A stretch of DNA of 64,000 bases from an uncultured Aquimarina sp. (GTDB taxonomy: Bacteria > Bacteroidota > Bacteroidia > Flavobacteriales > Flavobacteriaceae). The stretch spans positions 1-64,000 of the forward strand of contig CANMML010000003.1 of assembly GCA_947499005.1 (NCBI GenBank), written 5' to 3'. This document shows, piece by piece, positions 25,480-56,117 of this stretch. The position numbers were made by a program, and so were the translations under genes. The notes below the pieces were generated by a model that was given only the letters and a program-made list of their open reading frames with translations, ran no database searches and was not told where the DNA came from. The first letter of the stretch is position 1. Every line of letters begins with the position of its first letter.

Positions 25480-26424
25480 CTAAAATGTACATCCACAGGT
25501 ACTCTTCTTACAACCAAAGTCAATACCAACTGTTATTAAATGAGAACCACCTGCTGTTAATGCTAGAGATTCATTGGTGTTGATTTGATACCCATATGCA
25601 AAATAGAATGTTTGCCTTTTGATACCCACTAATGGAGCAGCAGAAACGGGTTTAAAACTTTGATCTATTAAACCTCTCATAGAAATCCCTGCCCAGAAAT
25701 AACTATCACGATAAAACTTCCTTATTTTAAAATTTACATCCAATGTTGAACGTTCATCTCCCGCAAAACTTCGATATAGAATCGAAGGCTCGTATTGAAT
25801 TTCCTTGATCAAATTATCAAAAGTAAAACCAGTATACACATAATAATTTTGAATTTGAGCTGGCTCTAGATTATTAAAATCTAGAACATCTTTATTTAAT
25901 AAATTAATAGCATTAGCACTTATAAAAAAGGATTGATGACGATATAAAATACTAATATCAAAATTATTATCTGTCCGTTGAATGTCTCCGACAGGGCTAT
26001 TAGATAATGTCCTATTGAACTCAGAACTATCAATCGTAAATTGTTGCAACTTATAACTAATCCCAAATGAAAGATACTGTCTTCGATATTCTGATAAAGT
26101 AATATGGTGAGCAAAAGATAACTGAATTCCTTTTTGCTCCGTAAAACCATTACTATCATTAAATATAACAGCCCCTATACCCGTTCTATTAGCTATCCTA
26201 CCATCTATCGATAATGACTGGGTAGAAGGAGCATCGGATAAACCTACCCATTGTTCGAATCCTGTAAAACGGGCTTGCCAACAATCCCCAATACCTGCAT
26301 AAGCTGCTGATAACAAAAAAGGGTTATCTGCAATGTATTGATTAATTATAGGTAAGGTTTGTTCTTGCCCCGAGACTTGGTAAGCAAGACATAAACCCAA
26401 TAAAAATTTAACTAATTTCTTCAT
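25480..26424 (-). CDS. sprF: PorP/SprF family type IX secretion membrane protein (SprF-like)
   Basis: 314 residues with signal peptide (1–19, ending VSGQ). The mature part opens 'INQYIADNPFLLSAAYAGIGDCWQARFTGFEQWVGLSDAP', as in PorP/SprF proteins, followed by 'GIGAVIFNDSNGF' and a β-barrel running to the end with a Cys-rich tail (GCKKSTCGC). Family role: outer-membrane barrels of T9SS, each often paired with one giant cargo; F. johnsoniae SprF is needed to export and attach SprB. The gene begins 12 bases after the giant adhesin gene, exactly as sprF follows sprB. The terminal Cys cluster is unusual and might be a disulfide or metal site. Confidence 0.88.
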   Translation of the reverse strand: MKKLVKFLLGLCLAYQVSGQEQTLPIINQYIADNPFLLSAAYAGIGDCWQARFTGFEQWVGLSDAPSTQSLSIDGRIANRTGIGAVIFNDSNGFTEQKGIQLSFAHHITLSEYRRQYLSFGISYKLQQFTIDSSEFNRTLSNSPVGDIQRTDNNFDISILYRHQSFFISANAINLLNKDVLDFNNLEPAQIQNYYVYTGFTFDNLIKEIQYEPSILYRSFAGDERSTLDVNFKIRKFYRDSYFWAGISMRGLIDQSFKPVSAAPLVGIKRQTFYFAYGYQINTNESLALTAGGSHLITVGIDFGCKKSTCGCTF

Positions 26425-41400: not shown

Positions 41401-44400
41401 TTCTACTAAAAACCTGTACGGCGCTGTAAAACTTTGTGGATTGAATGTAAGGGTATAAGAACCGTCAGACGTTGTTGTACCATCTGATAAACACTGAATA
41501 GAGGTTGGAACACCAGCTTCAAAACTAGCTCTCGTAAACACCGGAACATTTAAAGGCCCTCCTGAAACCGAACAACCTGTTGCAGTATTTCTAACGGTGT
41601 AATTTACCGTACCTGAAACAGGGAATGAATTGTTTGGATTATCGGCAGTAATTGTTCCATCAACATCATAAGTATATACATAATCTGCTGGATCTCCTAT
41701 AGAAGGAGTTAACACTAAACGATCCGAAGAACTACAATTAATTGTTTCAAGGGATTCTGAAACGGTAAACAATTCTGGGAAAACAGGGTTTAAAGTAATC
41801 ACATTAGAGGCACAATTAGGGGCACTACTATCTACAATTCTTATTTCTATTGTTTCTCTATCAAAACTATTATCAAATTCGAAGCGTGGATTGCTATTGC
41901 TTAATGTATCACCAGTATCTGGAGATGTTCCAGAAACTATTGTAGTTGTTGCGTCTCTAGGAGATACTTGATAAGAATAAATACCTGTTCCACCTGTAGC
42001 TCTGATTTCTACATAAGCTACTACTCCTGTCAAATCACCACTAGAATTACATTTAAGTATTTCTTCGGAATCAGTTACCACAGCTTCTATAGGTTCATTT
42101 ACAGTAAAAGTCACAATTGCAGGACATGATTCATGATTGCTATCGAAAACATTTACATCATAATCTCCCGCTGGCGTGGTACGTGGAAGGGTTATAGTGA
42201 ATGTTCCACTATTTCCTGTAAAATCAGTAACCGTTGTAGCACTTGTAAAAGAGGCTAGACTAGGTATGGTATATGAAAAATCTGCTGCTCCTGATACGTT
42301 TATACCTAACGTTATAGGGGCATCTGCTGTTATCCTAGGAATACATAAATTAGATGTAGCTTCAGTAGCTACTAAGTCGGGTATTGGATTAAATATCTGA
42401 TTCGTGGGGATATTTCCACAGCTATTACCATCGCGTACTAATAGTACAAAATTAGTATCGTCGCCTACTGAAGGCGGCACAATATTATTAAAAGTTGCAC
42501 TTGTTTGATATCCATAATCAGGATCTATTTCAGGAGTTCCTGGGTTTAAATCGGGCGTGTTAGGGTCGTCAATCGCATATTCATATTCTGGATCGCCTCC
42601 TCTACCAGGTGTTCCTCCAGCTCCTTCTAAGGTAACGGAATAGGTATTTGTTACACAATTGTACCTAGGACCATCAATTACAGATACTGTAGGTGGCGTT
42701 GGCCCTGCAGCAATGGCAAAAGCTTCTGATACACTAATACAATTAGATCTTCTGTCTGTCAAAATAATTCTATAGCGTAACGGATCTGCAATAAAGCTCA
42801 AGCCTTCAATAGTAAACGTATCTGGTCTGACTTCATTCGTTACCGTTCTAAAATTAGGATCAACTACTGTTGGTGGAGTTGTAGAAACATCTACAATTTC
42901 TATAACATAATCATACTGTGGTGATGTTGAAATTCTAGAGATTACTACGTTCACCGAAGCATCATCCGAATCAAAACAACTCAAGCGATTTCTATTCTGT
43001 ATATTTTGAATTCTAAGTCTTTCAATGGAAGGTACCACTATAGCAATATCCTCAATACAATTACTATCTACTGTTCTTGATTCAATAGTATATCTCCCTG
43101 GAGCAAGGTCAAACACTCCTGTAGTATTATTAAAAATAGCACTTGATGGTGTACTACCTCCTCCTTGATTTCTTGAAACTCTGTATTCTACATCAGGAAA
43201 TGGGGCAGCACTTGGGGTTGTAAATGTGGCTGAAATAGTAACCTCGACCGTAGGTTCTTCATCACCAGAAGCATTACAAGTAGGATTAGCAATTGCTTCA
43301 CTAAGCGTATAAACAGGTACAGGTTCAATTACAATTGTATTCGACAAAGGTGCAGGGCAATTGGTAACTCCACTATCATCTAGTACATTTACTCGATAAC
43401 TTCCTGCGGGTAAATCTTCGAATAATAATTGGGGATCGGATGTATTTCTTGGTGCTGTAGCAAATGGTGTTGTTCCTCCATCTCTAAATAATTGAAATGT
43501 ATAAGGGGGTGTACCTCCATAATCGGTACTCGAGCTATTGGCATCTACTACCTCGATAATACCTCCTGTTTCTCCTGTCGAAGTACATTCATTTTGCATT
43601 TCTAGCCTAATGACAGGTGCTGTTAATGCAGCTGGCTCTTCAATAGTGACCGAAACAGTGTCTGTTTCACATTGGCTAGTAGTACCATCAGCAAACGTAA
43701 TCGTCTCTAAAAGCTGTACGTCATAAGTACCTGCCTCTAAATTTGTAAAGGTTGAACTAGTCTGTAATAAAACTTCTTCCACTACAATACCATTTACCAC
43801 CCAATTAAGATCATTTGGAGCGGCGGTATCTGGATCATCGAACCTTAACGTTAAAATACCGTCATTTACTGAAGTGTAAAAGGTTTCTGGGTCTATTTGC
43901 CCTGCACCTCTATCAATATCACTTACCACACGCACGCCTTCGGCGTCAATGGTCATGTTGTCATGAGGGTTATCAAAATCACCTAGGGTTACTGTAACTC
44001 GATACGCCCCATTAGGTACGCTAATTTCGAAAGTTTCAGGATCTGGACTAAATATTAAATCTCTTTCTAATTCATTTACAATACCAGCACCGCTTGTGCG
44101 ATCTCTAGAATCGATACCCGTTGTTCCAGCAGCCCAACCAAAGTCATTACTTCCAGATTTTATTGTAGTCGTAGTTACTCTTTCAAAACCCGTTTGGATA
44201 TTAGAACTATTCGTACCAAAATCTAACTGATGTAAAGGGCTAGATGGAAGCTCGACGATATAAGATACATTGGTATCAGAAGGAACCGTTTCATTCGTAT
44301 TTATTGTAAATCTTCCTGTAGATTGCCCATTACATAATACATCCGTATGAGGAACAGGTTCTTCAATCGTTAGTGGACTGTATAGTGATAATGGGTTAGG

Positions 44401-47400
44401 AACCGTAAAAGATTCACTACAGTTATTTCCGTTGTTTAAAAATATAGTGAACGTAGGTGTACCATCAACATTGATAAACCTAATATCATTATTTACAATT
44501 GGTGAGGCGGTGTCTTCATCGATTGGAGGGTTAGGCGCATTGGCGAAATCATCTATATTAACTTCAAAAGCTCCATTATAAATCGTATTAGGAATACTTA
44601 ATGCAGGAATACTATAAGAAGTTACAGGTCCAGAAAATTCGAATCTGACTATGCTTGGTTCACATGTTAATCTTCTAACTACTGTTGGGTTTAACGTGCC
44701 AAATTCTTCAACATCATCTATTGTAAACTCTGCAGTTTCGACAACACAATTATCGTTAGGATCTACACTTTGATTTGGATTTACTGTTACTCCTTGTCCA
44801 TTAAAAAATACACGAATTTTGTACGTTGTACCTGGTAATAGATCATCAAATGCATGTGTATTATTTGAGCTATTTACTAATTGTACTTGACTATCAGGAG
44901 TAGCATCAACATTTATTAATTGATAGGTGTATTCTTCAAAACTTGATGGTGCTGTAATAGTAGCGGTACCTCTATTTTCCTGTACATCGTCAGATGGATT
45001 TTGGTCGAAAAAACAATTGGGTTGTCGTAGGCTTAGCGCATCATTGGTTAATTCAGCAATATTATATGTAACTACATCATCTCTAGAAATGTCACAACTA
45101 GTCCCAATAGTGGTCCCTGCAGAACCTGACACACTTGAATTTACTCGAGGTGTTGCTATTACCCTATAGGTGAAACTAGTCGTCGTTGTCAAGTTTGGTC
45201 TTTCAACTTCATAAGTACCGTAATCATCATCTGTAGGGTCTGTCTGAGGATTTAGGTTACCCGGACTACTCGGTAAAGAAACAAAATTAGTACCGTCGAA
45301 AACGAAATACTCTAAATCATAAATAACATTTGAAGCCGCACCTGGAAATCCTGAAGCCGCAATCACCACATCTTGATCACATCGTGGGTCTGCAGCATTA
45401 ATATCAAAAAGGCTATCATCAAATGGTATTACCCTGAAATAAGAAACAAAATTACATCCACCATTAGACAACGTAATACTCAGTTGGTAATCGCCTATCT
45501 CAGTTACTCTAAATGAACTGGTGCCTAAATCATTAGGGTTTGAAGTGTCTAAAGTTGTATTATCTCCAACAACGTCTCTATCCTCTAAAATATACCCACA
45601 ATTGGTGCCCGATACTGGACAAAGTTCACTATCGTTCATATCGCGAACACAAGTACTAGCGTCCACTTTACTCCAAATAAGCTCAGTCCCTGGTGGAAAA
45701 TTGGTTGGTATATCGAAACTATCTCCACAAAGTTCAAACAATACGACTTGTAAACCTGGATTACTAGGGCATTCACTTTGAAGAATTCCACCTAAATCTA
45801 AATCTCTCAAAGGTTGATTTTGAGCTGCTGATACATCAAATAAATCTACAGTAAAAGATTCATACTCATTGGCACATTCCATACCTGTTAAAGCACCCTC
45901 TAAGACATAGAAACCTGATTGATTTACGGTAAAGCTAGGGTTTGTTGTTGCTGTTTGCGCATTGAACGTTGCCGCTGTTTCATCAATTACGGAATCAGCA
46001 CTTGGCAAATCGCCAGGAAGACTAAAGCCACTAGGTTCATTATTGAAGAAGTATAGGTTATATTCATCAAAATCTCTACCCGCAGTTAACGCTACCGTTC
46101 CATTATTTTCACAAATGGTACGTTCTGCTGAATTACATTCTAAGCTTGGCGGTGTTAATTGAATTGTGGGACCTGGATCAAAATTAGGATTACATTCTTG
46201 AATGATTCCAAAAAAGCTTCCTTCAGGGAAACTTAATTCAAAGTCTATATTTTCTTCACCTTCATAATCGATTAAAGCAATATTTTGTACAATATTTGCA
46301 CAGGCATTGAGCGATGGTGCACACTCTTCTAAAACGGTTACTTGAAATCTTACTTTGATTTCTTGTATGTTAGAACAACCTGTCGCACAAGGGGAATACC
46401 CCAATGAAAAATTATTATTTGGATTTGCATCATCTGGTCTATTGTCATTGGCTTCTCCAGCAAAGGCATTAAACTCAAAACGTATTAATTCTGATTCGTA
46501 AGGAAATGGATTATCTGTAAAACCTAAAGGTGGCGTTGCTAAGCCTGTTCGAACTACCCTTGGTTCATTTCCGTCAGGTGCATCTGTACTTCCTATGGTA
46601 GAAAAAGAACGGCGATCTCCAGTTGTGCCTTCGAACTCAAAAAAATGTCCTCCTGAAAATGCAGTTAACTCCGTATTTGCAGGAATGTAATCTTCTAATA
46701 CTAAATTAATCGCATTGTCGTTTCCAATATTCGTCAGTGTCATTTCGTAAGTCAAAGTAGATCCGTAATTAATATTACCACTTTGATCTACTAAATCACC
46801 CATTTCATCAAAAGCTTGTTTCAACACAACTACTCTTGGCGCTATAACTTCTATGGCAAAGGCATTTACATAACTAATGATATTGTCTCTATCTGTAGTT
46901 AAAGTAAGGTCTACCCTAGTTTGGTTATTATCAATTAGTAGATTACCTGTATTATTAAGTATAAAATTATCTCCTTCAAACGTATAATTTTTTCCGTTAT
47001 TAGGAAATCTATCGGGTTGTGGCTCAAATTGTCTTATAGTAGTAGAAGTTGACAATAAATCTTCTCTTGTAACCGTTGCTATAGATCCATTGAAAAAATT
47101 ACCTCTAGGCTCATCAGAGCCATCATGAAATACATTTGGTTGTAAAGTTGCTCCAAAATTAGGATCGACTGTTACATTTTCTGGATCAGATGTTGATGCT
47201 GACAGGATTTGAAGAAAATCACCCTCTCTATCAGGGTCACCTTCAATTGCACCTACAAAAATATCTGCATTTACAGGGCCGAAAGGTATTGTTTGAATAT
47301 TATCGACTGTAAAGTTTACATCATCCCCACCCTCTATAATGTTTACTAAACCATCAGATATCGTAATAATACGCTCAGGTTCATTTTGATCCTCATAAAT

Positions 47401-48348
47401 CACGATCATATTCCAACCTGAAACGGCATCAACACCATCATTAGGTCCCGCATCTCTAGGAGGCCTATCTCCATTTGTTATGATTCCGTTTATATCTGCT
47501 ACCGTCCAAATCCCATCAGGATTGTCTAGTGATTGTACTAACTCTGTGATATCTGTACGACAAACAACAGGAGAAAATCTTCTAATATTTGCCGCTTGAT
47601 TATTGCTCAAACTAGTAGTTCTCGTTGCAGTTGTCCCAGGAAGTGTAAAAATTCCATCTTCTACCAGTATTGTTTCTAATCTAATTCCACCAGGGTTTAT
47701 ATTTACAGTAGCGTCAGGAAACAGCGAAATATTATAATATGTATCTCCACCCGGAGGCAAAATTTTAATTTCTGGAAATGATTGATCATCTCTATTACCG
47801 TCACCATCGGCATCAATAAATTCTCTATTACTTCCAATAATATTCAAATCTAAAGGCCTAGTTCCCCTACCAACACCTACATGATCTTCACTTGTAGTCT
47901 CTCTAGCATAAGCATATTGACCCGCCCAATATAAATAAGCTTGTACCACTTGTGCACAGCCTTCTCTACCTGTTTGATTAATTTTTAATTCTGCGGCACT
48001 TGATGAGAAAGTAGTATTTCTAGGGTTGGATCGATCTAAATTTGTAAATATTGGCGTAAATCTTGTATCGGAAGAGCTATCTATGTCAATATAGCCTGCT
48101 AAAACGCCATTATTACCCCTATCTCCTGTTTGAGGATTATAACCTTCTGTATTAGGATTTCTACCCCCTTGTGCAACACCTAAAGCAGAGTTACTAATCA
48201 CTTGCATACCCCCTTGTACCTGTTCTTGATATACTACACTAAAGTCTCTTACTACCTGAGCATTTAGACTAACAAGTGAAAAAAAGCAAAATAATATAAA
48301 TAAACCTTTGAGCGGAAAGCTTATCAAAATAGCGTAAATCTTCTTCAT
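26437..48348 (-). CDS. sprB: Giant SprB-like gliding adhesin with type B T9SS sorting domain
   Basis: 7,303 residues in one uninterrupted frame of 21.9 kb, longer than F. johnsoniae SprB (about 6,500). The signal peptide ends near residue 31 (SLNAQ). A head domain (about 32–520) includes a DADGDGNRDD calcium-type loop near 180. A DUF11-like β-domain (about 525–690, 'TYEMTLTNIGND') follows. From about 750 to 7,150 there are dozens of SprB-type β-sandwich repeats, each with a Cys near its start and motifs like 'GGTPPYTFQLF' or 'YxVxVxDxxxC'. A malectin-like domain is inserted at about 1370–1525. Residues ~7,200–7,303 are a type B C-terminal domain ('VMIFDRYGRLIADFKGL ... GWDGTYEGSNLPSGDYWFLI'). 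The protein is very rich in Thr, Asn, Asp and Pro. SprB moves along the cell surface as gliding adhesin; the operon context supports the same role here. Confidence 0.9.
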   Translation of the reverse strand: MKKIYAILISFPLKGLFILFCFFSLVSLNAQVVRDFSVVYQEQVQGGMQVISNSALGVAQGGRNPNTEGYNPQTGDRGNNGVLAGYIDIDSSSDTRFTPIFTNLDRSNPRNTTFSSSAAELKINQTGREGCAQVVQAYLYWAGQYAYARETTSEDHVGVGRGTRPLDLNIIGSNREFIDADGDGNRDDQSFPEIKILPPGGDTYYNISLFPDATVNINPGGIRLETILVEDGIFTLPGTTATRTTSLSNNQAANIRRFSPVVCRTDITELVQSLDNPDGIWTVADINGIITNGDRPPRDAGPNDGVDAVSGWNMIVIYEDQNEPERIITISDGLVNIIEGGDDVNFTVDNIQTIPFGPVNADIFVGAIEGDPDREGDFLQILSASTSDPENVTVDPNFGATLQPNVFHDGSDEPRGNFFNGSIATVTREDLLSTSTTIRQFEPQPDRFPNNGKNYTFEGDNFILNNTGNLLIDNNQTRVDLTLTTDRDNIISYVNAFAIEVIAPRVVVLKQAFDEMGDLVDQSGNINYGSTLTYEMTLTNIGNDNAINLVLEDYIPANTELTAFSGGHFFEFEGTTGDRRSFSTIGSTDAPDGNEPRVVRTGLATPPLGFTDNPFPYESELIRFEFNAFAGEANDNRPDDANPNNNFSLGYSPCATGCSNIQEIKVRFQVTVLEECAPSLNACANIVQNIALIDYEGEENIDFELSFPEGSFFGIIQECNPNFDPGPTIQLTPPSLECNSAERTICENNGTVALTAGRDFDEYNLYFFNNEPSGFSLPGDLPSADSVIDETAATFNAQTATTNPSFTVNQSGFYVLEGALTGMECANEYESFTVDLFDVSAAQNQPLRDLDLGGILQSECPSNPGLQVVLFELCGDSFDIPTNFPPGTELIWSKVDASTCVRDMNDSELCPVSGTNCGYILEDRDVVGDNTTLDTSNPNDLGTSSFRVTEIGDYQLSITLSNGGCNFVSYFRVIPFDDSLFDINAADPRCDQDVVIAASGFPGAASNVIYDLEYFVFDGTNFVSLPSSPGNLNPQTDPTDDDYGTYEVERPNLTTTTSFTYRVIATPRVNSSVSGSAGTTIGTSCDISRDDVVTYNIAELTNDALSLRQPNCFFDQNPSDDVQENRGTATITAPSSFEEYTYQLINVDATPDSQVQLVNSSNNTHAFDDLLPGTTYKIRVFFNGQGVTVNPNQSVDPNDNCVVETAEFTIDDVEEFGTLNPTVVRRLTCEPSIVRFEFSGPVTSYSIPALSIPNTIYNGAFEVNIDDFANAPNPPIDEDTASPIVNNDIRFINVDGTPTFTIFLNNGNNCSESFTVPNPLSLYSPLTIEEPVPHTDVLCNGQSTGRFTINTNETVPSDTNVSYIVELPSSPLHQLDFGTNSSNIQTGFERVTTTTIKSGSNDFGWAAGTTGIDSRDRTSGAGIVNELERDLIFSPDPETFEISVPNGAYRVTVTLGDFDNPHDNMTIDAEGVRVVSDIDRGAGQIDPETFYTSVNDGILTLRFDDPDTAAPNDLNWVVNGIVVEEVLLQTSSTFTNLEAGTYDVQLLETITFADGTTSQCETDTVSVTIEEPAALTAPVIRLEMQNECTSTGETGGIIEVVDANSSSTDYGGTPPYTFQLFRDGGTTPFATAPRNTSDPQLLFEDLPAGSYRVNVLDDSGVTNCPAPLSNTIVIEPVPVYTLSEAIANPTCNASGDEEPTVEVTISATFTTPSAAPFPDVEYRVSRNQGGGSTPSSAIFNNTTGVFDLAPGRYTIESRTVDSNCIEDIAIVVPSIERLRIQNIQNRNRLSCFDSDDASVNVVISRISTSPQYDYVIEIVDVSTTPPTVVDPNFRTVTNEVRPDTFTIEGLSFIADPLRYRIILTDRRSNCISVSEAFAIAAGPTPPTVSVIDGPRYNCVTNTYSVTLEGAGGTPGRGGDPEYEYAIDDPNTPDLNPGTPEIDPDYGYQTSATFNNIVPPSVGDDTNFVLLVRDGNSCGNIPTNQIFNPIPDLVATEATSNLCIPRITADAPITLGINVSGAADFSYTIPSLASFTSATTVTDFTGNSGTFTITLPRTTPAGDYDVNVFDSNHESCPAIVTFTVNEPIEAVVTDSEEILKCNSSGDLTGVVAYVEIRATGGTGIYSYQVSPRDATTTIVSGTSPDTGDTLSNSNPRFEFDNSFDRETIEIRIVDSSAPNCASNVITLNPVFPELFTVSESLETINCSSSDRLVLTPSIGDPADYVYTYDVDGTITADNPNNSFPVSGTVNYTVRNTATGCSVSGGPLNVPVFTRASFEAGVPTSIQCLSDGTTTSDGSYTLTFNPQSFTAPYRFLVEEEVSIAPSVYQSTTITPSSVNNVVGGNIEALFSNLSIGRYRITVFDVNDCDQTFVPFVISGIPEISIGDAILSTPATCVDGVDIYFYIEGGTEPADFRLALVDTDFVDPSLIQRDEPPTPFDVFQRLGNTDFTSIPQRVIDERLDPDGQSENDFFQDILDNLPGSSGISSIPELRSRYFRIRRQRPGEIYLIRAREGDDACSTPFETERGQDAPEILAVNTANATNTGGCDDVNTGSIDVTFSISNTIDQVGNQFRVEVIIEEFSIETIIGNTVLIDADGRGTYGDLDPAADPDDKIIIDGLPEVTGAFVRITFEGTVCSEPSAPFNIGRDPELENFTATPTTASCAPNEDFTIDLRAQGGTLPYRFLIQRQGLGAPNAASTYPITTPTATSTSVQVTLPASTSPIDDRIRPADALEIAANPDIFGFIDAYIVDAQGCTLQQLNIPLELERLPELTFTSTVDCKTDDGPFTVDFRIDNFDETQVYTLRDTGTSGAITPTTYSSTSGLADQDLTFVTGTTQATGVLTVNAPGSFTVEVSSNENPSCTDPDSFVIFPRLQAEAIPSGVDCFNEFEEITVNITGGFAGETNREITAVITETSTSRTATETLLVPSNNSTPTLVFNNVISGATSFPLRAGEAYTVQIFDERNNTISSSLTCDVLLNVDPQDPIVPAQISTTQNEVSCPTEADGSLRIVIDNNGSEIPPAPVYRLYRFDDADDATNLAAATNAFNQANARDYSAFVDSRLVPNEASTNPIADRDSSDPFFRELSASPAYYVPFIETSSGCFVAGSPAQIGAPAVPSFTGISTSATQSRCFEPLAADRTGSSITITIEGTVDLSLFNYVYEIIDANGDVIGPITIAAGDSPITRPVPFDEAVNLTYTIRVYDTVTENCGVFTDTQTINACTPFEKQPLSISAIANDLDCFEGTDPDGTATITIVDTEPAFSLNYDFTITPNDGSVAIPNPSSGTNQTSGTINVSNLQPDILYTIAVIDNNNEDPTARRQPLVNFSVENPEETGAALTENTPLFSCPSGNRTANVVARSLDGQPPYNFELRNPAGDLVSVISGQTNPTIGSTNPVANFSFDSTNGDGTYTLVVTDGNGCMAEDTLNVTFPPEIQIDAVVLNGCIPNAANTNPVAVRIDVTDLSGIAPGGNYIYRWYAQGTDPSLLPAFSSPFSSDNPIFINDTGITSAGIYVVEVQDEASGCPVTDTFEILAPVTASLTANAPIRCDADGNIPSNRFVYEATLSIMGGIGAPYDLEVFDGTGTEITDQISIPDRDTATPRFLFTSAFDTDARRAISIRVIDNASPVNCQLATPTTFSIEVPEFPSATIEFDPIECNNGNTNITINATPTSETLEYRFCGEDCTEADLEALAFVSGANVANGIEAGVFRYQVRNSLGCIFSDDFNIEEPSEIAVVFDNQNVTCNTLGSGSDGIIRAQASGGALGGAAVRYTYELVGNGATLRRENTTTQAIFNNIEADITYQLTVTVLTNSGVPTSCTLTRPVTLPNNPSFDAIGFETEVTDCNSGVSLYFVLDNANDASQLEIEVEGANFISPEASFTDDVARFGNTDFTSDTGIDFSVGIANSPEAQERYFRITNLPFKTAGEEYVIRVRELGTLNNCPTTLEFPAEVNPFITITEVNPTPTGACTADTGALEVVFEVSDTSLLGETFTAEVFDGTTSLGTPGSGVITTSPGTLIITGLPEITTATVVVSSGSCEATAPSPALPVNPMLESPSGGSTLANCNDNAVLSLSASGGSGNYSFSITNINAAVPGTFEALGTSSFEMNSSEAVALDSRITLVENISSPTAAQQAVIDSDPFVFGLVDIWVRDSNLCVAGPVPVGVRRVNTPSFTILDIANECDGNSFDVSYQIGNYDANQAYRISGSYSENINAASLTAVNATTVTGTFTVSNRGDFDINLSGNATACTVPASFTIFSPFTTTVTAGNANCDGSITGISIAALNNGFINPNRSVVYELYQGTDTSGGVIDTPQTVNAVNPGIVTFNTGLVTATSYLVVIRDIFDPSNGSSTRVCERSFPVAPVDAIPSITVANETPVSPSCPDTATGSVEITVSPGTVSISEYALFFYSSAVAADNHATTPSTNVTRQSTPDFFGLEDGFYVAEATIDGTVCSTASIRFEIQDPVLPVIADFNIAGNQVCDNTTETGERSASISITFPTLPDDGDYVYRIVRAGNFDTGDVGFDNTSDNPILIENIPFPEVDGQIFTYTVSITDNSRPTCPQASIGSQDVTFTACPEFVPDPEEVDIQVLPTAVACSDEELFDISFRVTDTGDPNFPFTYDVFGGPPFINDQGNNITVDQVDLTGLSVDDRDDYQITLISLDPDNYVFSENRDVITVPLLSPGDLFIPNPLSVSLVDVTPICNGNAYSESLELRVPDGLGTGPFTFELFPVVDNSDPDNIILGTSLGTDTPVARTSTAFSVNTNGNYRVVVTDNTTGGPCSALTDFPIVLPNPLDATLTPLDICLPDTDLRVDIASGSSRPTRYRYYRSGTTPPSFDNLITTTTSQFNIQDIDEAGTWTVDITNDDGCIFSLGDVIINETLTTTNVNRFNPTCTADGDVPGDGATISFMVTGGTSSYLYTFDKVTTDNNGDEILTPVTRSDVAISGTNANPTFGFDRSMFNGATIQITINDSNVDGTCNLSITERFGPLYPENLTAGFMTNAILCEGESGSIVVDRPTTGSRAFTYTFYEADLFVDVATSTPLQGPSNVPSYSTTIQLNVIYVVDDTTTGCRFVSSAIAISDTTVQADNITATDVTCLNANAGSVTVNVSRGSGTFRYELLDPNDTSLPAIATINKTPADTDNRQAVFTSLVPDEYLVRITDTGNSCPTSIETETVRVAAVSDIEIRDIIGFACDDASGATFIFSVFEPGITLPAPYEIGINGATPVDPSADLTDDFYTFDEADTAGIVPAGINISTSQRERFYVVTRLPIGVEHDLIILNNSTRGGTGCTRSAQLLQNTDPIEDIRGFACDDDGGATFIFSVPGNDPGPFLISVNGGPNIDPSADLNDNFYTYAEAAAVSPAVIPSVFPIPDASEQNEFYIVTGLPTAIDNVLVVTSDTSRGGTGCEREAVLRRDTDVIDTITVTPTGITNCPSDSVITLGSAIVNFTVGTSTATDFEMTLLDADTFAPVGGILPANPIAPTVANTDFTFTNLPAGDYVVQVYETGSSCGTISDPFTIEEIPPLVAPTVLSNSPANCNEDALVTVTASGGNPFDTGVPYQYAIRLDGDVTPVTSLPFAQDDSFEIAITPPATSAMYELYVRDENNCIVRGANFTINRTPEPQVSIVTPVSSNQCNGTSNFPVTIRIDNYVNTRAPYRVEIQQGTEITNQILNVDEGTFEAEISLPRRGNFTITVFDNIGCNDAGNTFEVREALTAMIDPTPTANCDGTITDINVTISGGSADPANVTYELFRNGISIVGPQASPNFASSPLLITGADYEVVVRDTFETINGTPLATACSATTIPINILPIERSTPDEIIEISPITCTDDTDGELRLALDAALGTSPALPIEFALYIYTSEVDALAAIAEVQTSGVAPSTGTQIGTVQSSDLFSNLDDGWYVGFVINNSCYTAFPIPAELVNPDPHVVADITGTVIEGSCNPNRNPVYRISVNNVAGIEPYFYQIDGGPRILIPGTDVVDDTTIIPPLEVDVNLTPGPHTITFSDSVNPICFVGPLREENPIIPEFRLPEIVVSQSAAFDCLSDEVVDIVVTGNRTTTYEVAAFRTDGTLITPIPSVLAIQSVAPNDDEFTVQFTLTEPGTYVFEATDTAGNGCSVVSDPYSFENVEQLGLSLIGAPMVDCVGDEDAAITFRVDNFEGFFAYDITPRPTGSTFPIIVDTAAITDSNREVSSPAIFGAGDYVLSVTAVADISGTPQSSRSECTATRMDVRVGDPITPVELRVNDVDPITCSNESVGVDIVAQGLFGNPQYEFQLRRIAPTVADIQLFGMTPINDTGVFAGITEPGTYEVSIRDSKNCEALMPTEIVIEEFRSLPNVAITTVQPNCPGDRGSIVVDATINNSISGEENPIIYRLLQLDNAAGDNPRTVIGRNATLASGVFTAREIFEDQLAGLFNETDRIFYQVEVEDRFGCTMVSNIDFIRQPQPLDIQLVQVEIPMSCDIRIQAQGETEQVRFRAEGGTGALTFEVLAANEDGSIREPEQVLTSSLNFNDLDSNGNPITPLALNSGDPNEALFELIPGFNYIRVTDANGCSETTFYQVGNPPLPIEATITVLPDSDGVLCQDTTGLVNIVGNARGGVGNYTYEVVLIVPDNSQPTGFRELTAADSPRIPVILGEIENPTSTLFTDLIGLRFDRTPVADGGNGLPVDMTYGYKITSGSCPVFIEPFDYNERLINLEPIETTRPSCANEEDASIAVTFANPMLADAGEYTITIIRESRPDGSGNFELINAEARLFNLTDDISQSRTVTFDNLLDGNYLIRVNSADGCLVVEQTRIEPKEPLVVREISRTPIDVFINLDTGSRESDVCQGDNYNITFEIEGGTPPYFYQLIEANSEEPLNPELNLWGIVNEVDFDRTNANGPGFYVTIDQNLIDENTQYELFVIDTGNGFVRNLDQATIDDTDPTNDNFNYNVNESDTILPEMVCRIFSTSFEFTAPILDQFVVEPFVNCIPETPGDILNYNLRVNIPENTGLNEEDITYIAFVDDGSGNYTNRLNAGQADEILLQSGFDPRLDDNIIANVPAGEVFIGLRYQYVNRAGDEMVCYTFQTNGGNITPEFENLSINPINFEGKRLELPFFNELMFETDLSNNTLIENAPYIEAIGLNEYRIQGRDGFGSNSYSYEVINSVTGNIPVSSDGQFTITETAEYTLTVISNTNIEATDGNLIPQECRVSETELLKFIDLEIPNVFYPGSGEIGESTWYPDQILFDDVPGGNNLEEFRNLEVMIFDRYGRLIADFKGLKDRSIGEGWDGTYEGSNLPSGDYWFLIKLNDNDNREFTGHFTLYRKSGN

Positions 48349-48409: not shown

Positions 48410-51400
48410 TTACTGATTTTCAGAGGTACGAATACTCTTTAATTTAGTTTTTAACACTTTACGATTTTTCTTATTCAAATCAATCGTTTTGGTTTCTTCT
48501 ATCAAATCAGATACTTCATCTGAGTTTACCAAAGCATTAACCAATTGTACAAATGGTATTTTGGTCAACTCAAGCTTTGGGTTCAAGTGCAATTCTTTTT
48601 CAAAGAATTCTCTTTGTAGTTCTAAAATATTTCTTGGCTTTCTATCGATATTTCCTTGTTTGTTAGGATCTATCTTAATTGTTCTTTTCAGTCGTGCTCC
48701 AGAACCGTTAGTTCCATCATTCGACTTTATTACTTTCGTTGTTCTTTTCAGCTCTGCTTGTACAGCTTTACGGCGTTCTTCTTTTTCTTTTTCATCTTGC
48801 AACACTTTGCTTACTCTTTTTAACTCAGCAGATTTTCTCTTCTCTTCTTGTTCAACAACGGTTGTACTACGTGATAATGAAGAATTCTTTTTACGAGCCA
48901 ATCGTTCTTGCTCTATACGTGCTTCTTCGGCAATACGAGCCTCCTCTGCTAAACGCGCTTCCTCTGCTTTTCTAGCTGCTGCTTCAGCAACACGTCTTTG
49001 TTCAGCAATACGTGCTTCTTCAACTCGTCTTCTTTCTTCTTCTTCTCTACGTAATTGATCTATACGAGCCTCCTCTGCTCTCTTTCTCGCTTCTTCTTCT
49101 CGTTTGATCTCTGCTTCTTTGTATCCAATTTCTGCATCGATTTGTACTAATAAATCTCTCTTTTGAGCATTATCTAGATTTTGATCATTGTTAAGCACAT
49201 CTCTTTGCTTTTTTAAATCTTGTAATGTACCTGAGCTTAATATATTTTGAGTTTCAGACAATACTTGCTGTCTTTCTCTTTCTATTGCTGCTAATCGCTG
49301 CTCTTCGGCGATACGTGCCTCTTCTGTCAAGCGCTTCTCCTCTGCAATACGTGCTTCTTCGGCTAGTCTCTTTTCTTCAGCAATACGAGCCTCTTCTGCT
49401 AATCGTTTTTCCTCAGCAATGCGAGCCTCTTCTGCTAATCGCTTTTCTTCAGCAATACGAGCCTCTTCTGCCAAGCGATTCTCCTCTGCGATACGAGCTT
49501 CTTCAGCTAATCGTTTTTCCTCAGCTATACGTGCTTCTTCTGCTAATCGATTCTCCTCAGCTATACGTGCTTCTTCAGCCAAACGCTTCTCTTCGACAAT
49601 GCGAGCCTCTTCTGCTTCTTTACTAGCTATACTAGATTCTAAAGCATTTATCAATTCTTGCTTTTTAGAAGCACTTAATAAATCATTTGCTTGAATATCT
49701 TCAATAGCAGAACGCTGTTGATCTATAGAACCACTAGCTATTACACCTTCTGCTTTGTTTATTGCTACAGCTTTTTGTTCTGCTTCTAATGCTAAACGAG
49801 CTTCTTCTGCTCTCTTTTCTGCTTCCTTATTTTCTATAGTAGTTGTTATACGTTGTAATAATGCTTGCTTTTGTGCTGTAGGAATTATTGTACTACTTCT
49901 TAATAAAGTCGATTGACGCTTTAACGCTTCAACATCTCCATCATCCAGGGTATTTTCAACTACTGCAATTTCTTCTTCACGTTTCTTAACAACTTCTGCT
50001 TCTTTAGTCTCAATTGTATTTTCTACCCGTTCTAATAAGTCTCTTTTTTGTTCTGCTGGTATTATTGTACTACTTCTCAATAAGGTAGCACGACGTTGTA
50101 ATGCCTCTACATCTCCAGCATCTATAGTACTTTCAATTGCAGCGATTTCCTCTTCTCGTTGTATTGTATTTGTAAGACGTTGTAATAACGCTTGCTTTTG
50201 CGGTGCAGGGATTAGTGTACTGCTTCTCAATAAGGTAGCTTGACGTTGTAATGCCTCTATATCTCCAGCATCTATAGTATTTTCAACTGCTGCGATTTCC
50301 TCTTCTCGCTGTTTAGCCTCCTCAGTTAATCTCGTCTCTTCTGCTATACGAGCTTCTTCTGCCAATCTCTTTTCTTCGGCGATGCGGGCCTCTTCTGCTT
50401 CTTTATTAGCAATACTCGAATTTAATTTTTCTAGTAAAGATTCCTTTTCATCAGCAGGGATTAACGTACTACTTCGTAATAATGTAGATTGACGTTGTAA
50501 CTCTTCTATAGTACCCGTAGCAATTACATTCTCCGCTGAGGTTATTGCTTCTTCACGCTGTCTTGTTTCCTCTGCAATACGTGCTTCTTCTACTTCTTTA
50601 TTTGCTATAGTCGTAGTGATACGCTCTAATAAGCTTTGTTTTTCTGCTTCTGGAATCAGTGTACTGCTTCTTAACAATGTAGATTGACGCTTCAATGCTT
50701 CAACATCTCCTGCATCTAAAGAGTTTTCAACTGCGGCAATTTCTTCTTCACGTTGTTTAGCCTCCTCAGCTAATCGTGTTTCTTCTGCTATACGAGCTTC
50801 TTCTACCAATCTCTTTTCTTCGGCGATACGGGCCTCTTCTGCTTCTTTATTAGCAATACTCGAATTTAATTTTTCTAGTAAAGATTCTTTTTCATCAGCA
50901 GGAATTAATGTACTGCTTCGTAATAATGTAGATTGACGTTGTAACTCTTCTATAGTACCTGTAGCAATTACATTCTCCGCTGCGGTTATTGCTTCTTCTC
51001 GTTGTCTTGCTTCCTCTGCAATTCGTAACGTTTCTTGATTTCTTCTATCAATCTCATTATCTATCTTATTATTAAGATCTTGTTTTTCTGAATCAGCTAA
51101 AAAAGTATTGTTTTCCAATAAGCTCTTTTGGCCCTCAAGGTCTTCTATACTACCATTAGCAATAAGATTGTCAACACCTGCAATAAGTGCTGCTTTCTGA
51201 TTCGCTATTTCAGCTAATCTAGCTGCTTCCTCTGCTTTACGCTGTTCTTCGGCTAGCCTAGCTGCCTCTTCTAAACGTAAACGTTCTCCTTCTATATCAT
51301 TAATCTTATCGTCTATTTCTTCTAATAGCGCTTGCTTTTCTTCTTGTGGTATTAAATCTTGATCGTTTAAGAAATCTTTCTGAGCTCTTAATTCCGATAC

Positions 51401-54094
51401 ATCATCGGTATTAGTAATAGATACCTGAGCTTGATTAATAGCTTCAACAATTAAATCTTCTTGTGTTTTTGTTAATGTAGTAGAACGAAGTAGCTTACTA
51501 AGCTTTTTCTCGTCTCCTTCTTCTTGAGCAATTTTAATTTCTTCCTCTTTATTTTCTATAAATGAAGAGATTTTCTGAAGAATCGCTTTTTTCTGAGGTT
51601 CTTTTAAGAAACTAGCAGTACGCACCAATAATGATTGACGTCTTAATTCTTCTAGACTTGCTTCTTCTAATTTATCGTCTTGAGTGGCAACATTAGAAAT
51701 CTCATCTACTGTTTTTCTGTAATTGCTAACGCTAGTTATTCGATCTAATAATGAACCTTTTCTTTCTGCTGGAATAAAAGAAGATGCACGAATTAGAGAA
51801 GATTTCTTTTCTAAATCATCCAAATTGGCAACAACTAAACTTTCCTCAATTTCTTTTTCAAAAACGTCTTGTCGATCTTTATTTTCCGATTGCTTCGTAA
51901 TTACTCTTTCCAATAAAGCTTGCTTTTGCGCATCTGAAAGCAACGAAGAAGTACGGATCAATTCGGATTGCTTTTCTAAACCTTCAACATCGGCTGCAGC
52001 AATTGCTGTTTCGGATATCGCAAAAAAGTCGTTTGATGATCTTTGTTTATCTTCTAGTGTTCTAGTTATTCGAGATAATATAGACTGTTTTTCGGTATCA
52101 CTTAATAATTTAGAATTACGAATAAGACTTGCCTGAGCTTGTAATTCCACAGGGTCTCCATTTACTATTTTAGTTTCAGCTTTTTCTAAGAAAGCCAATT
52201 TCTCTTCATTCCTTTTTGCTGTTATCTGAGTACTAATACGCTCTAAAGTGGAACGCTTCTCATCATCATTTAGTAAGGTTGTACTCTTTATTAATTCAGA
52301 TTGTATTTCTAAATCAGAAAGACTTGTACCTGCTACCAATAATCTATCGACATTAGCCAATAGTGATATTTTGTCAACTTCTCGTTCTTGTGTTTCTTCA
52401 TTCAATTGAACCAATCTAGATAAAAAAGCCTTTTTCTCTTCTCTCGTTAGAAACTTACTTTCACGAATCAGTTTTGCATTAGTTTCTGCTTGCGCTAAGT
52501 TTCCATCATCTAACAGTGTAATACTTACGCGAAGTAACTCACTGTCTGCTCTTCTATTTTTAGCTTCTACTTCTACTACTTCTGCTTCTGCTTCTAATTC
52601 ATAAGTCAGTTTATCTAAGCTTGCTGATAATGCCGCTTTCTCTTCTACTGTGGCATATTTGCTAATATTGATACGCTCTAATAAAGCGCGAGCCTCTCGT
52701 TCATTTCCTTCAGCTATCAGCTGGTTAAATCTTTGTAAAGCAGATCTAGTTTCATTTTTAGCACGCGTTTCTTCTGCAATACGTAAATTTTCCTCTTCGA
52801 TATCGTTTTGTAGTCCTGCTACTCTTGTAAATCTGCTATTGATTGCTTTCTTGGTCTCGTCATCAATATATTGACTGTTTAAAATACGATCTAGATTTGC
52901 ACGTGCTCCATTTATATCATTACCGTCTAATTGCTCTTCAATAGTTGCTAGCAATTGCTCATCCGCTGCTTTTTGCTCTTCTTCGAGTAATTTTTGATTA
53001 CGTAGTAACGTAGCTTTTTCTCTAGCATCTTGTAATGCTGCTAATTTATCTTGTTGTTCTTCTCTAGCTTTTTTCAGTGCAATTAACTGTTCTGCCTTAG
53101 ATAATTCTTCTCTTTCAGGTAATTCGCGAGCTGGTTTCTGTGGTTGTTTCTTTCTTTTCTTTGCTTTTCTTCTTGGCTGGGTAATGTTATACGCTAATAC
53201 AATCTCATGACTAGATCCAAACGATCCTGTATCTCCAATACCTCTTTCTATCGTATATCCAATGGTAGCAAATGGTGCTACGTTAAATCCTAAGCCTAAA
53301 GAAACTCCAAATACTTGATTGTAACCGATTTGAGCGAAACCGTATTTCTTATTTTTTATAATTCCATTAAGTCCATAAATGGTCGTTCCATTGATGATCT
53401 TTTCTAGATATAGCATTCCTCCTACTATATTATCTGATCTTCTACGAATAGGTTTTGCCAGCATGGTATGGACCACTATGGTCGGAGTATCAAAAATAGC
53501 TGGGTCTCCAGCTAATGCCGTATTAAGTAAATTTCGACCAGCTACACCAAAATCAAAGTTTTTATATTTTAAATTGGCTCCTAAACTCCCTCTTAATAAG
53601 GTTGCGTTTTCAAATGAATTAAGGGATTGACCATTATCAATTGGCTCGAATGAATTAATACCAGTTATCGAAGAAGATTGAAATCTAACATTAGTACCAA
53701 AAGCTAAAGAAACATCTTTTTGAATATCTACACTGTAGGCGTAATTTAAAACTCCTCCAAAATTTGAGAAAATACCTATAGATTGTTGCAATAATGCAAC
53801 TCCAAAACTCATATGTTCATTGAATGTTTTAGTATAAGTACCTCCAAAATTACTAGGCCCATCTTCAAATCCAACCTTTTCTAATTTTCCGAAAAAGGAA
53901 AAATATCCATTGGTATCATTATAGTAAGCGGCTTCTTGGTTGAATGATGTTGCGGGATTGAATAAAAATTGATTGTATTGTATGTACGTGTGTGTAGTGG
54001 CTTGAGGAATACCCGTAAAGCTTTCTTCTTGTGACCACAATAATTGAGCTATTGCGCAGAAACATAATGTAATGACATGTAATTTTCTATTCAT
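48410..54094 (-). CDS. sprD: PorP/SprF barrel fused to a ~1,580-residue helical repeat region (SprD-like)
   Basis: 1,894 residues. A signal peptide (1–21, ending LLWSQ) and a PorP/SprF-type barrel (about 22–305, 'YIQYNQFLFNPATSF', 'GGTYTKTFNEHMSFGVALL') are followed by a basic linker (RRKAKKRKK). From about 378 to 1,660 come some 19 copies of a unit of ~40–80 residues with the pattern [helix]-hinge-E-L-x-x-Q-S-x-L-L-R-S-S-T-L-I-P-x-x-E-K-x-x-L-L-x-R-I, several spaced by EAR-IAEEKRLAE coiled-coil stretches. A 12-residue tandem array lies at about 1,494–1,602. The last 230 residues are highly charged, with four short 'LKRTTKV'-like motifs. The position between sprC-like and sprB-like genes matches sprD. 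I know of no named domain for the repeat, and no OmpA-type peptidoglycan domain is visible. The tail is presumably periplasmic. Confidence 0.85.
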   Translation of the reverse strand: MNRKLHVITLCFCAIAQLLWSQEESFTGIPQATTHTYIQYNQFLFNPATSFNQEAAYYNDTNGYFSFFGKLEKVGFEDGPSNFGGTYTKTFNEHMSFGVALLQQSIGIFSNFGGVLNYAYSVDIQKDVSLAFGTNVRFQSSSITGINSFEPIDNGQSLNSFENATLLRGSLGANLKYKNFDFGVAGRNLLNTALAGDPAIFDTPTIVVHTMLAKPIRRRSDNIVGGMLYLEKIINGTTIYGLNGIIKNKKYGFAQIGYNQVFGVSLGLGFNVAPFATIGYTIERGIGDTGSFGSSHEIVLAYNITQPRRKAKKRKKQPQKPARELPEREELSKAEQLIALKKAREEQQDKLAALQDAREKATLLRNQKLLEEEQKAADEQLLATIEEQLDGNDINGARANLDRILNSQYIDDETKKAINSRFTRVAGLQNDIEEENLRIAEETRAKNETRSALQRFNQLIAEGNEREARALLERINISKYATVEEKAALSASLDKLTYELEAEAEVVEVEAKNRRADSELLRVSITLLDDGNLAQAETNAKLIRESKFLTREEKKAFLSRLVQLNEETQEREVDKISLLANVDRLLVAGTSLSDLEIQSELIKSTTLLNDDEKRSTLERISTQITAKRNEEKLAFLEKAETKIVNGDPVELQAQASLIRNSKLLSDTEKQSILSRITRTLEDKQRSSNDFFAISETAIAAADVEGLEKQSELIRTSSLLSDAQKQALLERVITKQSENKDRQDVFEKEIEESLVVANLDDLEKKSSLIRASSFIPAERKGSLLDRITSVSNYRKTVDEISNVATQDDKLEEASLEELRRQSLLVRTASFLKEPQKKAILQKISSFIENKEEEIKIAQEEGDEKKLSKLLRSTTLTKTQEDLIVEAINQAQVSITNTDDVSELRAQKDFLNDQDLIPQEEKQALLEEIDDKINDIEGERLRLEEAARLAEEQRKAEEAARLAEIANQKAALIAGVDNLIANGSIEDLEGQKSLLENNTFLADSEKQDLNNKIDNEIDRRNQETLRIAEEARQREEAITAAENVIATGTIEELQRQSTLLRSSTLIPADEKESLLEKLNSSIANKEAEEARIAEEKRLVEEARIAEETRLAEEAKQREEEIAAVENSLDAGDVEALKRQSTLLRSSTLIPEAEKQSLLERITTTIANKEVEEARIAEETRQREEAITSAENVIATGTIEELQRQSTLLRSSTLIPADEKESLLEKLNSSIANKEAEEARIAEEKRLAEEARIAEETRLTEEAKQREEEIAAVENTIDAGDIEALQRQATLLRSSTLIPAPQKQALLQRLTNTIQREEEIAAIESTIDAGDVEALQRRATLLRSSTIIPAEQKRDLLERVENTIETKEAEVVKKREEEIAVVENTLDDGDVEALKRQSTLLRSSTIIPTAQKQALLQRITTTIENKEAEKRAEEARLALEAEQKAVAINKAEGVIASGSIDQQRSAIEDIQANDLLSASKKQELINALESSIASKEAEEARIVEEKRLAEEARIAEENRLAEEARIAEEKRLAEEARIAEENRLAEEARIAEEKRLAEEARIAEEKRLAEEARIAEEKRLAEEARIAEEKRLTEEARIAEEQRLAAIERERQQVLSETQNILSSGTLQDLKKQRDVLNNDQNLDNAQKRDLLVQIDAEIGYKEAEIKREEEARKRAEEARIDQLRREEEERRRVEEARIAEQRRVAEAAARKAEEARLAEEARIAEEARIEQERLARKKNSSLSRSTTVVEQEEKRKSAELKRVSKVLQDEKEKEERRKAVQAELKRTTKVIKSNDGTNGSGARLKRTIKIDPNKQGNIDRKPRNILELQREFFEKELHLNPKLELTKIPFVQLVNALVNSDEVSDLIEETKTIDLNKKNRKVLKTKLKSIRTSENQ
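49289..49612 (-). repeat. Nine 36-bp tandem repeats (12-residue unit EARIAEEKRLAE)
   Basis: Inside the sprD-like gene, nine near-identical 36-base units encode EARI[AV]EE[KNQ]RL[AT][EA]. Differences are mostly synonymous third-base changes. The unit size is a multiple of three, so gain or loss of units keeps the frame and alters the length of a charged single α-helix or coiled coil. Confidence 0.9.
50160..51010 (-). repeat. Recent 444-base tandem duplication of two helical repeat units
   Basis: The segment starting at 50401 recurs at 50845 (444 bases, 148 codons apart) with only scattered single-base differences over about 160 bases. Each copy carries one RSSTLIPADEKESLLEKLNSS unit plus the following unit. 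The much higher identity than between other units indicates a young duplication. Confidence 0.8.
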
Positions 54095-54098
54095 TTTG

Positions 54099-56117
54099 CT
54101 ATCTCAATATTGTGATTGTTCCTTTTTTCAACTCTTCTCCATCATTAGTGATGATGTAGTAGTAAATTGATTCTTCTAAAACTGTTCCAGATGCTGGCCA
54201 ATTATTTTGATAATTTGTTTGGCTTAAAACTTCCTTTCCATTTGGATCTATTATCGTTACTAGTATACTATTGCTTGAAAATTCGAAAGGTAATTCCCAC
54301 AAATTATTACTAGTTAATGTTGGAGTGACAATATTTGGAATAGGGATATCAGATGAAGATTCTACTCTTACTACAATTTCATCTAAACTAGCTGCATTAC
54401 ATTCATCAGTATCTATACGCACCGAATAGCTTCCTGGTCTAGTTACTTCCAATGTTGGATTTTCACCATTTTCTGTAATATCAATTCCATTTCTTGTCCA
54501 TTGATATGTTGGTGAAGTTAAAATATCTGATATATTGACACTAAGTCTAATTGTCTCTCCTAAGTTCAATTCATTTGTAGCACTCGATGATTGTATTTCT
54601 ACACTATCTAGGCTTAAAATAACTTGCAAGCTATTTGATGGTTGTTCTCCTATTATGGCTTGATAACTTCCATTTTGGTTTGCATTATTTATGACTAAAG
54701 ATCTAGAGTTTTGGCCTTCAACTATTTCTCCTTCATTTGACCAAACTATCGGAAGTGAAGAAATTATATTTTGATCTGTAATAGTTACATTACCACCAGA
54801 TACATTTGTTGCAGTTACTGAAATAATGTCTAATGAAATTTCACTAACAGAACAATTTGTATAAAGTTCGTCACTGTAAACAATTGTAATTGATTCTATT
54901 TCAAAAGGAACTACTTCAATTTGCTCATCGGACATGATTGTATTTTGAGAACATCGTGAAGTTCCTGTAACTTGTGCAGTATATATTCCGGGTGCATTAA
55001 CGTCTAAAAATTCATTATTGCTATTGGGTATAGATATGCCATCTTGGAACCACTCAATTGAAGTATTTTCTCCTGATACTTCAGCAAAAAGTCGTGTAGT
55101 ATTACCTGGAATAAGTATTATTTCAAAAGGCTCTTGTAGTTTTATTGTAGGATTTAGCAAATCTACTTCAATTCTGTTTTGAGATGTTGAAGTTCTACAA
55201 TCACTATCAAAACCAAACTCAGAATTTGTGATATCTAATCTATAAGACCCTTCTGCTTTTATACCTGTAACCAAAAAAGTTGAGGTATTCGCTCCTTCTA
55301 TTAATTGATCATTTAAAAACCATTGATATTCAAAATCAGGATCATCGATACTACTTGTCAGTGTTAAGCTTTCTTCAGCACATATCGTATTTGAATTACT
55401 TGATGAAGTAATTTGAAAATCAACAGCATTAGCACTCATCCCATCATCTACAATTGCATCATTGGATCTAGCCTGACTTAATAAAAGCTGGCATCTACCA
55501 AGTCTTGGTCTAAAAAAGTACCTTCCAGGAGCTTCTGGAGTAAATGTATTTGTAGTTGTAGTCTTTAAAAGAATCTCCCCAGCCATTGGGTCAAATAAGT
55601 ACCAGTTATATTCTTCTAAATCATTAGGCTCTGCTGTGATTGTTGTTATGGAACAATTACTTCTAGGTAAAAGTATCAATGGTCGATTATCATAAATAAA
55701 AACAGAAAAGGCATCTGAAACCAAACCCCTCTGGCCTGTAGACCTTACAAAAACTCTAGCTCTATAGTCATCACTTCCAAAAGGAGTCCCACTTCCATCA
55801 TTGAATGGATAAATTACATCAAAATTAATTGTTAGTAGCTCACCTGATGTTAGACTAGATTCTAATACCTGCGTATCTAATTCTAATGCACCAACAGAAA
55901 AGCTTCCAGATTTATTTGAAATCTGAAGCACAAATTCTGTTCCTATATCGAATGGCCCATTTAAATCAACGGATGCATCAAATTCGGATGTTTCATCTAT
56001 AGTACTACATGCATTTCCTATCATCAATTCTCCAATCGTTTGCGCTTTCACACAAATTGAAGTGAATAATAAACAGCAAATGCTGAATACACTAAGTAGG
56101 TTTTTTTGCCTTTGCAT
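54099..56117 (-). CDS. sprC: SprC-like Ig-domain T9SS cargo
   Basis: 672 residues with signal peptide (1–25, ending CVKAQ). The mature chain has an N-terminal β-domain (about 28–140), then four or so Ig-like/PKD-like modules recognisable by 'YQWFLNDQLIEGANTSTF', 'IEWFQDGISIPNSNNEF', 'IVWSNEGEIVEGQNSRSL' and 'YQWTRNGIDITENGENPT'. It ends with a short gliding-associated (type B-like) C-terminal domain 'PNIVTPTLTSNNLWELP ... IYYYIITNDGEELKKG'. It lies 4 bases upstream of the sprD-like gene and is the first gene of the operon, matching sprC of F. johnsoniae. Expected to be secreted and surface-bound; SprC has no known biochemical activity. Confidence 0.8.
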   Translation of the reverse strand: MQRQKNLLSVFSICCLLFTSICVKAQTIGELMIGNACSTIDETSEFDASVDLNGPFDIGTEFVLQISNKSGSFSVGALELDTQVLESSLTSGELLTINFDVIYPFNDGSGTPFGSDDYRARVFVRSTGQRGLVSDAFSVFIYDNRPLILLPRSNCSITTITAEPNDLEEYNWYLFDPMAGEILLKTTTTNTFTPEAPGRYFFRPRLGRCQLLLSQARSNDAIVDDGMSANAVDFQITSSSNSNTICAEESLTLTSSIDDPDFEYQWFLNDQLIEGANTSTFLVTGIKAEGSYRLDITNSEFGFDSDCRTSTSQNRIEVDLLNPTIKLQEPFEIILIPGNTTRLFAEVSGENTSIEWFQDGISIPNSNNEFLDVNAPGIYTAQVTGTSRCSQNTIMSDEQIEVVPFEIESITIVYSDELYTNCSVSEISLDIISVTATNVSGGNVTITDQNIISSLPIVWSNEGEIVEGQNSRSLVINNANQNGSYQAIIGEQPSNSLQVILSLDSVEIQSSSATNELNLGETIRLSVNISDILTSPTYQWTRNGIDITENGENPTLEVTRPGSYSVRIDTDECNAASLDEIVVRVESSSDIPIPNIVTPTLTSNNLWELPFEFSSNSILVTIIDPNGKEVLSQTNYQNNWPASGTVLEESIYYYIITNDGEELKKGTITILR

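Follow-up and report, generated by a model that had tools for sequence, protein, structure and literature searches.

Type B cargo of the type 9 secretion system (T9SS) is anchored by PorP-like barrels that are usually encoded nearby (PMC9143113 and PMC10202324, in the parts accessible to us). For one such barrel, SprF, the accessible part of Liu et al. 2025 (PMC12635249) describes how the carrier rides the gliding track, namely by a disulfide between its CxC tail and Cys343 of GldK, and an RGCF motif surrounds the equivalent cysteine of PorK. The same text holds, in a statement that cites a thesis and in a figure legend, that SprC moves on the gliding track, and its accessible part mentions SprD only within a reference title. 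SprD figures in the title of Rhodes 2011 (PMC3021240) as part of the sprB operon, and the available excerpt of PMC11885536 describes it as required for gliding.

The window analysed here is a stretch of 64,000 nucleotides from an uncultured Aquimarina sp. (contig CANMML010000003.1, positions 1 to 64,000). Its gene order is sprC-sprD-sprB-sprF, the same as in Flavobacterium johnsoniae, with the gene of 1894 residues in second place (Table 1). A Malectin and Kelch protein with a type A T9SS sorting domain (23615-25369, minus strand) lies directly after sprF. The F. johnsoniae reference was obtained by scanning 398 genomes of a related genus with 22 bases of the sprD 3′-end primer given in PMC9870892, which gave one match (G493), and stretches of that genome (L182/L183) supplied SprC (483 aa), SprD (1588 aa), SprF and both ends of SprB, the gene of which was read at both ends with the middle left out. 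Read from an upstream Met, this SprF has its cysteine pair at 324 and 326, as numbered in PMC12635249. The window barrel aligns with F. johnsoniae SprD at 34% identity over 314 columns (E 1e-41) and has no match at E 1e-3 among three other F. johnsoniae proteins, and the window SprF matches its F. johnsoniae namesake at E 2e-101. The F. johnsoniae SprD also has a long tail (∼1285 residues, against ∼1590 in the window protein) and sole cysteines at 12 and 16, and on these traits together with the homology the window gene was filed as sprD; by gene order and homology it corresponds in Aquimarina to sprD of F. johnsoniae. In 78 of 80 loci the sprD start lies no more than 8 bases from the end of an SprC-like frame, and for the remaining pair, L094 and L110, just 38 and 447 bases of upstream sequence are available. 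The link to gliding made by the sequence-only reading is thus borne out by a known gliding gene, although the partnership with SprB that it proposed is not, as position pairs SprD with SprC, and SprB adjoins its own SprF with a CxC tail.

Table 1. Coordinates of the sprC-sprD-sprB-sprF region in the window and of the features within its products
Feature	Position	Strand	Evidence or remark
sprC-like gene, 672 aa, Ig-like domains and CHU_C sorting domain	54099..56117	(-)	Pfam, homology
sprD-like gene, 1894 aa	48410..54094	(-)	signal peptide, PorP/SprF barrel, helical repeat tail
PorP/SprF barrel, residues 35-303	53186..53992	(-)	Pfam and 14 strands in model
Repeat array, 17 units (traces up to ∼20), ∼46 residues each, residues 381-1656	49127..52954	(-)	unit HMM
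Charged stretch, EEARIAEEKRLA repeats, residues 1490-1611	49262..49627	(-)	sequence
C-terminal segment, residues 1815-1894	48413..48652	(-)	conserved in the window's clade; relatives continue into SPOR-like domains
sprB-like adhesin, 7303 aa, TIGR04131 type B sorting domain	26437..48348	(-)	profile match
sprF, 314 aa, 48% identical to F. johnsoniae SprF	25480..26424	(-)	Pfam, homology
Cys-Gly-Cys pair in SprF C-tail	25489..25497	(-)	GldK disulfide motif, role from the accessible part of PMC12635249

The sprD frame is a single open reading frame from ATG to stop. Pfam PorP_SprF (PF11751) covers residues 35-302 (E 2.5e-23; 83.4 bits against a cut-off of 22.3), whereas the NCBI model TIGR03519 scores 77.7, under its own cut-off of 90.55. 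An AlphaFold2 model of residues 1-800, calculated from 46 aligned sequences, places 14 strands between 64 and 303, in agreement with the outer-membrane barrel proposed from the sequence. In VIA comparisons FadL (2r88, Z 24.8) and chain F of the T9SS entries 8gl6 (Z 24.8) and 6h3i (Z 24.6) are tied, and Foldseek ranks 8gl6_F first; as FadL scores equal to the T9SS chains, the barrel match is to be read at superfamily level. Chain F, which we take to be PorV, the general carrier of the T9SS, shares the fold at these scores but presumably has no such tail. PDB sequence searches with the barrel, the repeats or the SPOR pair of relatives (see below) gave no match apart from a weak one to an uncharacterised protein (E 0.051). 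No OmpA-like domain was found by Pfam up to E 0.1, as the sequence-only reading had it, and an OmpA-type end of the PorP-OmpA fusion kind was rejected. Compared with the SprF and PorP carriers, the window SprD has the same Pfam family and barrel, but is without the CxC tail of SprF, without an adjoining PorE-like gene, and extended by its tail.

The tail is predicted to be helical as far as it was modelled, with helices only from residue 340 to 800, and from ∼550 onwards long helices (35-36 residues) and short ones (12-13 residues) follow one another in turn at a pLDDT of 78-91 (blocks of ten). AlphaFold2 tends to render such sequences as helices, and the tail model rests on few sequences (ten to ∼residue 560, three beyond), which counts against the explanation favoured below. 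A unit HMM trained on the tail itself and read at a threshold of 15 bits finds 17 stretches, 16 of them above 44 bits and one at 21 bits; with a sub-threshold trace at 354-376 (11 bits) and two further traces seen by eye (about 445-500 and 845-884), the earlier count of ∼19 units was a fair one. In 500 shuffled tails no stretch passed 15 bits (maximum 9.3), which rules out a chance repeat. Neighbouring unit starts lie ∼50-85 residues apart where charged stretches intervene, and wider at both ends, and the underlying DNA is partly in tandem repeats, those of 36 and 444 bp among them (36 bp at 49288-49615). Beyond the barrel nothing exceeds a curated Pfam cut-off, also when the pieces 300-800 and 965-1425 are searched separately, so that the unit is, as had been noted, tied to no named domain. 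Spectrin repeats are likewise units joined by continuous helices, but with ∼106 residues per unit against ∼46, and the protein has no spectrin match in Pfam up to E 0.1; TolA domain II, a long periplasmic helix, offers a further comparison.

The same architecture recurs in two further assemblies, L067 (1869 aa, 18 units) and L068 (1931 aa, 19 units), and an assembly artefact was therefore rejected. Unit matches occur in 26 of 61 genomes of the genus, and those listed fall inside sprD frames by a by-eye comparison of coordinates, the one addition being a 441-aa frame further along the same contig of G057 that was taken as the second piece of a broken sprD; units occurring in other proteins were hence rejected. 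Unit number among relatives ranges from 0 to 19, with 17-19 in some members of the window's clade, the window protein included.

A long tail had been regarded as an oddity of this protein. In 14 Aquimarina genomes, however, 138 PorP/SprF matches (E 1e-12) include just one frame above 380 aa per genome, which is sprD by coordinates (647-1897 aa, some cut or broken), whereas all others have at most 370 aa. Across the order an SprD-like barrel is present in at least 60 of 296 genomes (E 1e-15; up to seven candidates scored per genome), always in a frame of at least 402 aa, the frame of 402 aa being cut by a contig end. From 218 relatives 80 named loci were retained, in which 59 SprD are complete and unmasked, the 21 cut or masked ones being omitted from the length counts. 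Lengths are 709-1931 aa in the window's clade with the window protein set apart (n = 7), 983-1665 aa in the main Aquimarina clade (n = 32) and 748-1089 aa in other genera (n = 20); two short Aquimarina frames (709 and 951 aa) look broken or shortened, and with these set aside complete Aquimarina SprD spans 983 to 1931 aa. A long-tailed SprD is the rule, not the exception. A new kind of fusion was accordingly rejected, as the comparison with F. johnsoniae SprD called for earlier finds the same plan there, with the same operon position, barrel and long tail. The tails differ in that the F. johnsoniae one consists of Ala/Lys/Glu-rich low-complexity sequence and one SPOR-like domain, whereas the window tail has at least 17 units and no SPOR.

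The cysteines separate SprD from SprF. The window SprF ends in KSTCGCTF, and GldK of the window's genome carries the RGCF motif. The window SprD has only C11 and C13, with no cysteine after residue 13 and no CxC in its C-tail, and none was found in the mature part of 82 of 82 SprD, within the sequence available for each and with the signal peptide removed by a simple rule before counting. A disulfide of the SprF-GldK type can therefore not be used by SprD. Two more PorP/SprF barrels of the window's genome (G000) end in CxC motifs, SCFC in L005 (C7:34813-35685) and ACNC in L006 (C18:73243-74139), and the strain may thus have three disulfide-linked carriers. A barrel fragment with an internal stop (L008, C19:13009-13233) is likely a decayed copy. 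In the window, a 346-aa protein (10718-11758, plus strand) matches the GldK model below cut-off at 96 bits and is presumably another formylglycine-enzyme-fold protein.

The ends of SprD from relatives appear to contain SPOR-like domains, an assignment drawn jointly from Pfam, strand-helix order, Foldseek probabilities and cross-models. The modelled end of one main-clade SprD (L089) shows two beta-alpha-beta-beta-alpha-beta domains. Pfam SPOR matches 31 of 34 isolated main-clade ends (best E 1.2e-5; the first member scores 20.3, just below the curated cut-off of 21), with DUF4070 also matching 32 of the 34 weakly, and Pfam finds no SPOR in whole main-clade SprD, in 21 end pieces of other genera or in F. 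johnsoniae SprD. Foldseek returns CwlC, DedD, RlpA and FtsN at probabilities of 0.91-1.00 (E 0.02-0.05), although unrelated folds of lower probability stand above them and E 0.001 is not reached by any entry. The VIA scores for DedD (Z 6.9) and RlpA (Z 6.2) fall in the range below 8 that may reflect merely a common arrangement, and lie beneath a Burkholderia exported protein (6ozd, Z 8.2). In other genera the end consists of a single domain, which aligns to the second main-clade domain (hhalign E 1.5e-9, probability 96%), as does that of F. johnsoniae SprD (E 1.4e-9). When a model built on one group is applied to the other, it detects a SPOR-like end in every one of the 32 complete Aquimarina SprD of the main clade and in 19 of 20 from other genera, the remaining one at E 0.0011.

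In the window's clade neither model finds this end in any of eight proteins, the window protein included (best E 0.81). A search for the SPOR pair in the window's own genome gave no match, with 52 other genomes as positive control; of 66 genomes across the genus, 52 have the pair and 62 the barrel. Twelve genomes have the barrel but no SPOR. One of them, G024, is truncated by a contig end, with a score resembling those of the main clade, and the other 11 (G021 also cut) have barrel scores of E 1e-109 to 1e-141, a range shared with five SPOR-bearing genomes, so that the tree places only those barrel-only genomes that are among the named loci. The ten SPOR-less rows of the tree, two of them cut before the end, lie on one side of a branch with support 100/100, in an unrooted tree that carries a warning that long branches meet. 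We read the pattern as loss of SPOR, not gain elsewhere, from the position of the SPOR-less group inside Aquimarina and not from the tree. Homology of the window C-terminus to the segment preceding SPOR is only suggestive (hhalign E 0.0013, probability 7.4%). L050 (G011) was rejected as a further SPOR-less SprD, as its SPOR pair stands in a separate 478-aa frame that by calculation overlaps the sprD end, and the gene is probably frameshifted.

SPOR-like ends also occur outside SprD. Six Flavobacteriales PorP/SprF proteins of 470-546 aa (L186, L187, L188, L189, L190 and L191) resemble the window SprD in having a barrel, a linker and no cysteine beyond residue 24, but end SPOR-like where the window's clade does not; this subgroup is a grouping made here and no published family, and we found no paper naming the architecture in the literature searched. 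Two Aquimarina membrane proteins (L184:2948-5050 and L185:1195-3300), which by eye look like M56/BlaR1 peptidases, carry at the C-terminus a domain related to the second SPOR-like one of SprD and so exemplify domain shuffling.

Taken with the fold and gene order, which support a carrier role, these data lead us to propose that SprD is a carrier barrel anchoring SprC, the tail of which links it non-covalently, on the periplasmic side, to the gliding track or the wall (probability roughly 0.5). The barrel, of the T9SS carrier type, would most likely receive and anchor the type B surface protein of the gene directly upstream, SprC. The tail would be an extended periplasmic rod of long helices joined by short ones, in a spectrin-like arrangement; helices were expected from the sequence and agree with the model, and a periplasmic location, expected likewise, is supported by homology to the SprF C-tail, which the accessible part of PMC12635249 calls periplasmic. 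This rod would tie the SprC-SprD complex to the gliding machinery without a covalent bond, most likely through the moving GldJ/GldK/GldN track, and relatives may also bind peptidoglycan via the SPOR-like end. As that end is missing in the window's clade, where its absence suggests that it is dispensable, the rod and the conserved last 80 residues would have to bind alone. From helix lengths each unit would advance, by rough estimate, 3-4 nm, giving a rod of several tens of nanometres that would more likely run along the membrane than across the periplasm.

Two points count against a link to the moving track. A SPOR-like end indicates peptidoglycan, hence a static anchor, and argues for the wall instead of, or besides, the track; this conflicts with a moving SprC, and the movement itself is given by the thesis-citing statement and figure legend of one paper (PMC12635249, in its accessible part). 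SprD could accordingly be a static wall anchor that joins in cis the barrel and peptidoglycan-binding tail that PorP and PorE provide as two proteins, a reading we hold to be rather unlikely. The SPOR fold in relatives (31 of 34 ends in Pfam, the DedD and RlpA scores) and the similar ends of the six other PorP/SprF proteins favour it, whereas the reported motion of SprC, the retention of the gene without a SPOR end in the window's clade, and the F. johnsoniae domain, which Pfam does not recognise and for which sequence does not establish glycan binding, speak against it. Its corollary, that in the window's clade the wall-binding end has disappeared and the rod is a spacer or the wall is bound otherwise, can be advanced only as tentatively. 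A tail that organises the track, lying as a long rod along the GldJ/GldK/GldN filaments and setting path or spacing without carrying SprC, appears doubtful: relatives do differ greatly in tail length and unit number, as would suit a scaffold, and rail-like structures beneath the outer membrane of F. johnsoniae are described in the accessible part of PMC9870892, but these rails were recovered from sprB deletion cells, and adjacency to sprC suggests a carrier. The ruler or tether between the SprB export site and the motor, the function originally proposed, has become very improbable. The predicted helical tail and its periplasmic side by homology would suit it, but SprB has its own carrier in SprF, total SprD length varies ∼twofold within one genus, the extended tail is probably longer than the periplasm as its width is usually given, and a range of 0-19 units suits a scaffold or multi-contact rod better.

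That SprD is a gliding gene was already known; the present analysis adds the SPOR-like ends of SprD, in F. johnsoniae too, the cysteine-free mature protein, and a SPOR-less clade with 17-19 units in some members. No paper treating SPOR and SprD together was found in a search that mostly left aside subscription papers and preprints, and the SPOR end recognised here may be known from such sources or a thesis. As a speculative extension of the carrier-and-link reading, the SprD class might constitute a third, cysteine-free T9SS cargo attachment beside the SprF disulfide and PorE, a long rod riding the moving track, with the window's clade having lost the wall-binding end, multiplied its units and being held by many weak track contacts alone. 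Since SprC is said to move and its likely carrier SprD has no cysteine, SprD would allow the driving of a second surface protein to be tested directly, and the SPOR-like end, present in relatives and absent in one clade, provides two natural versions for comparison.
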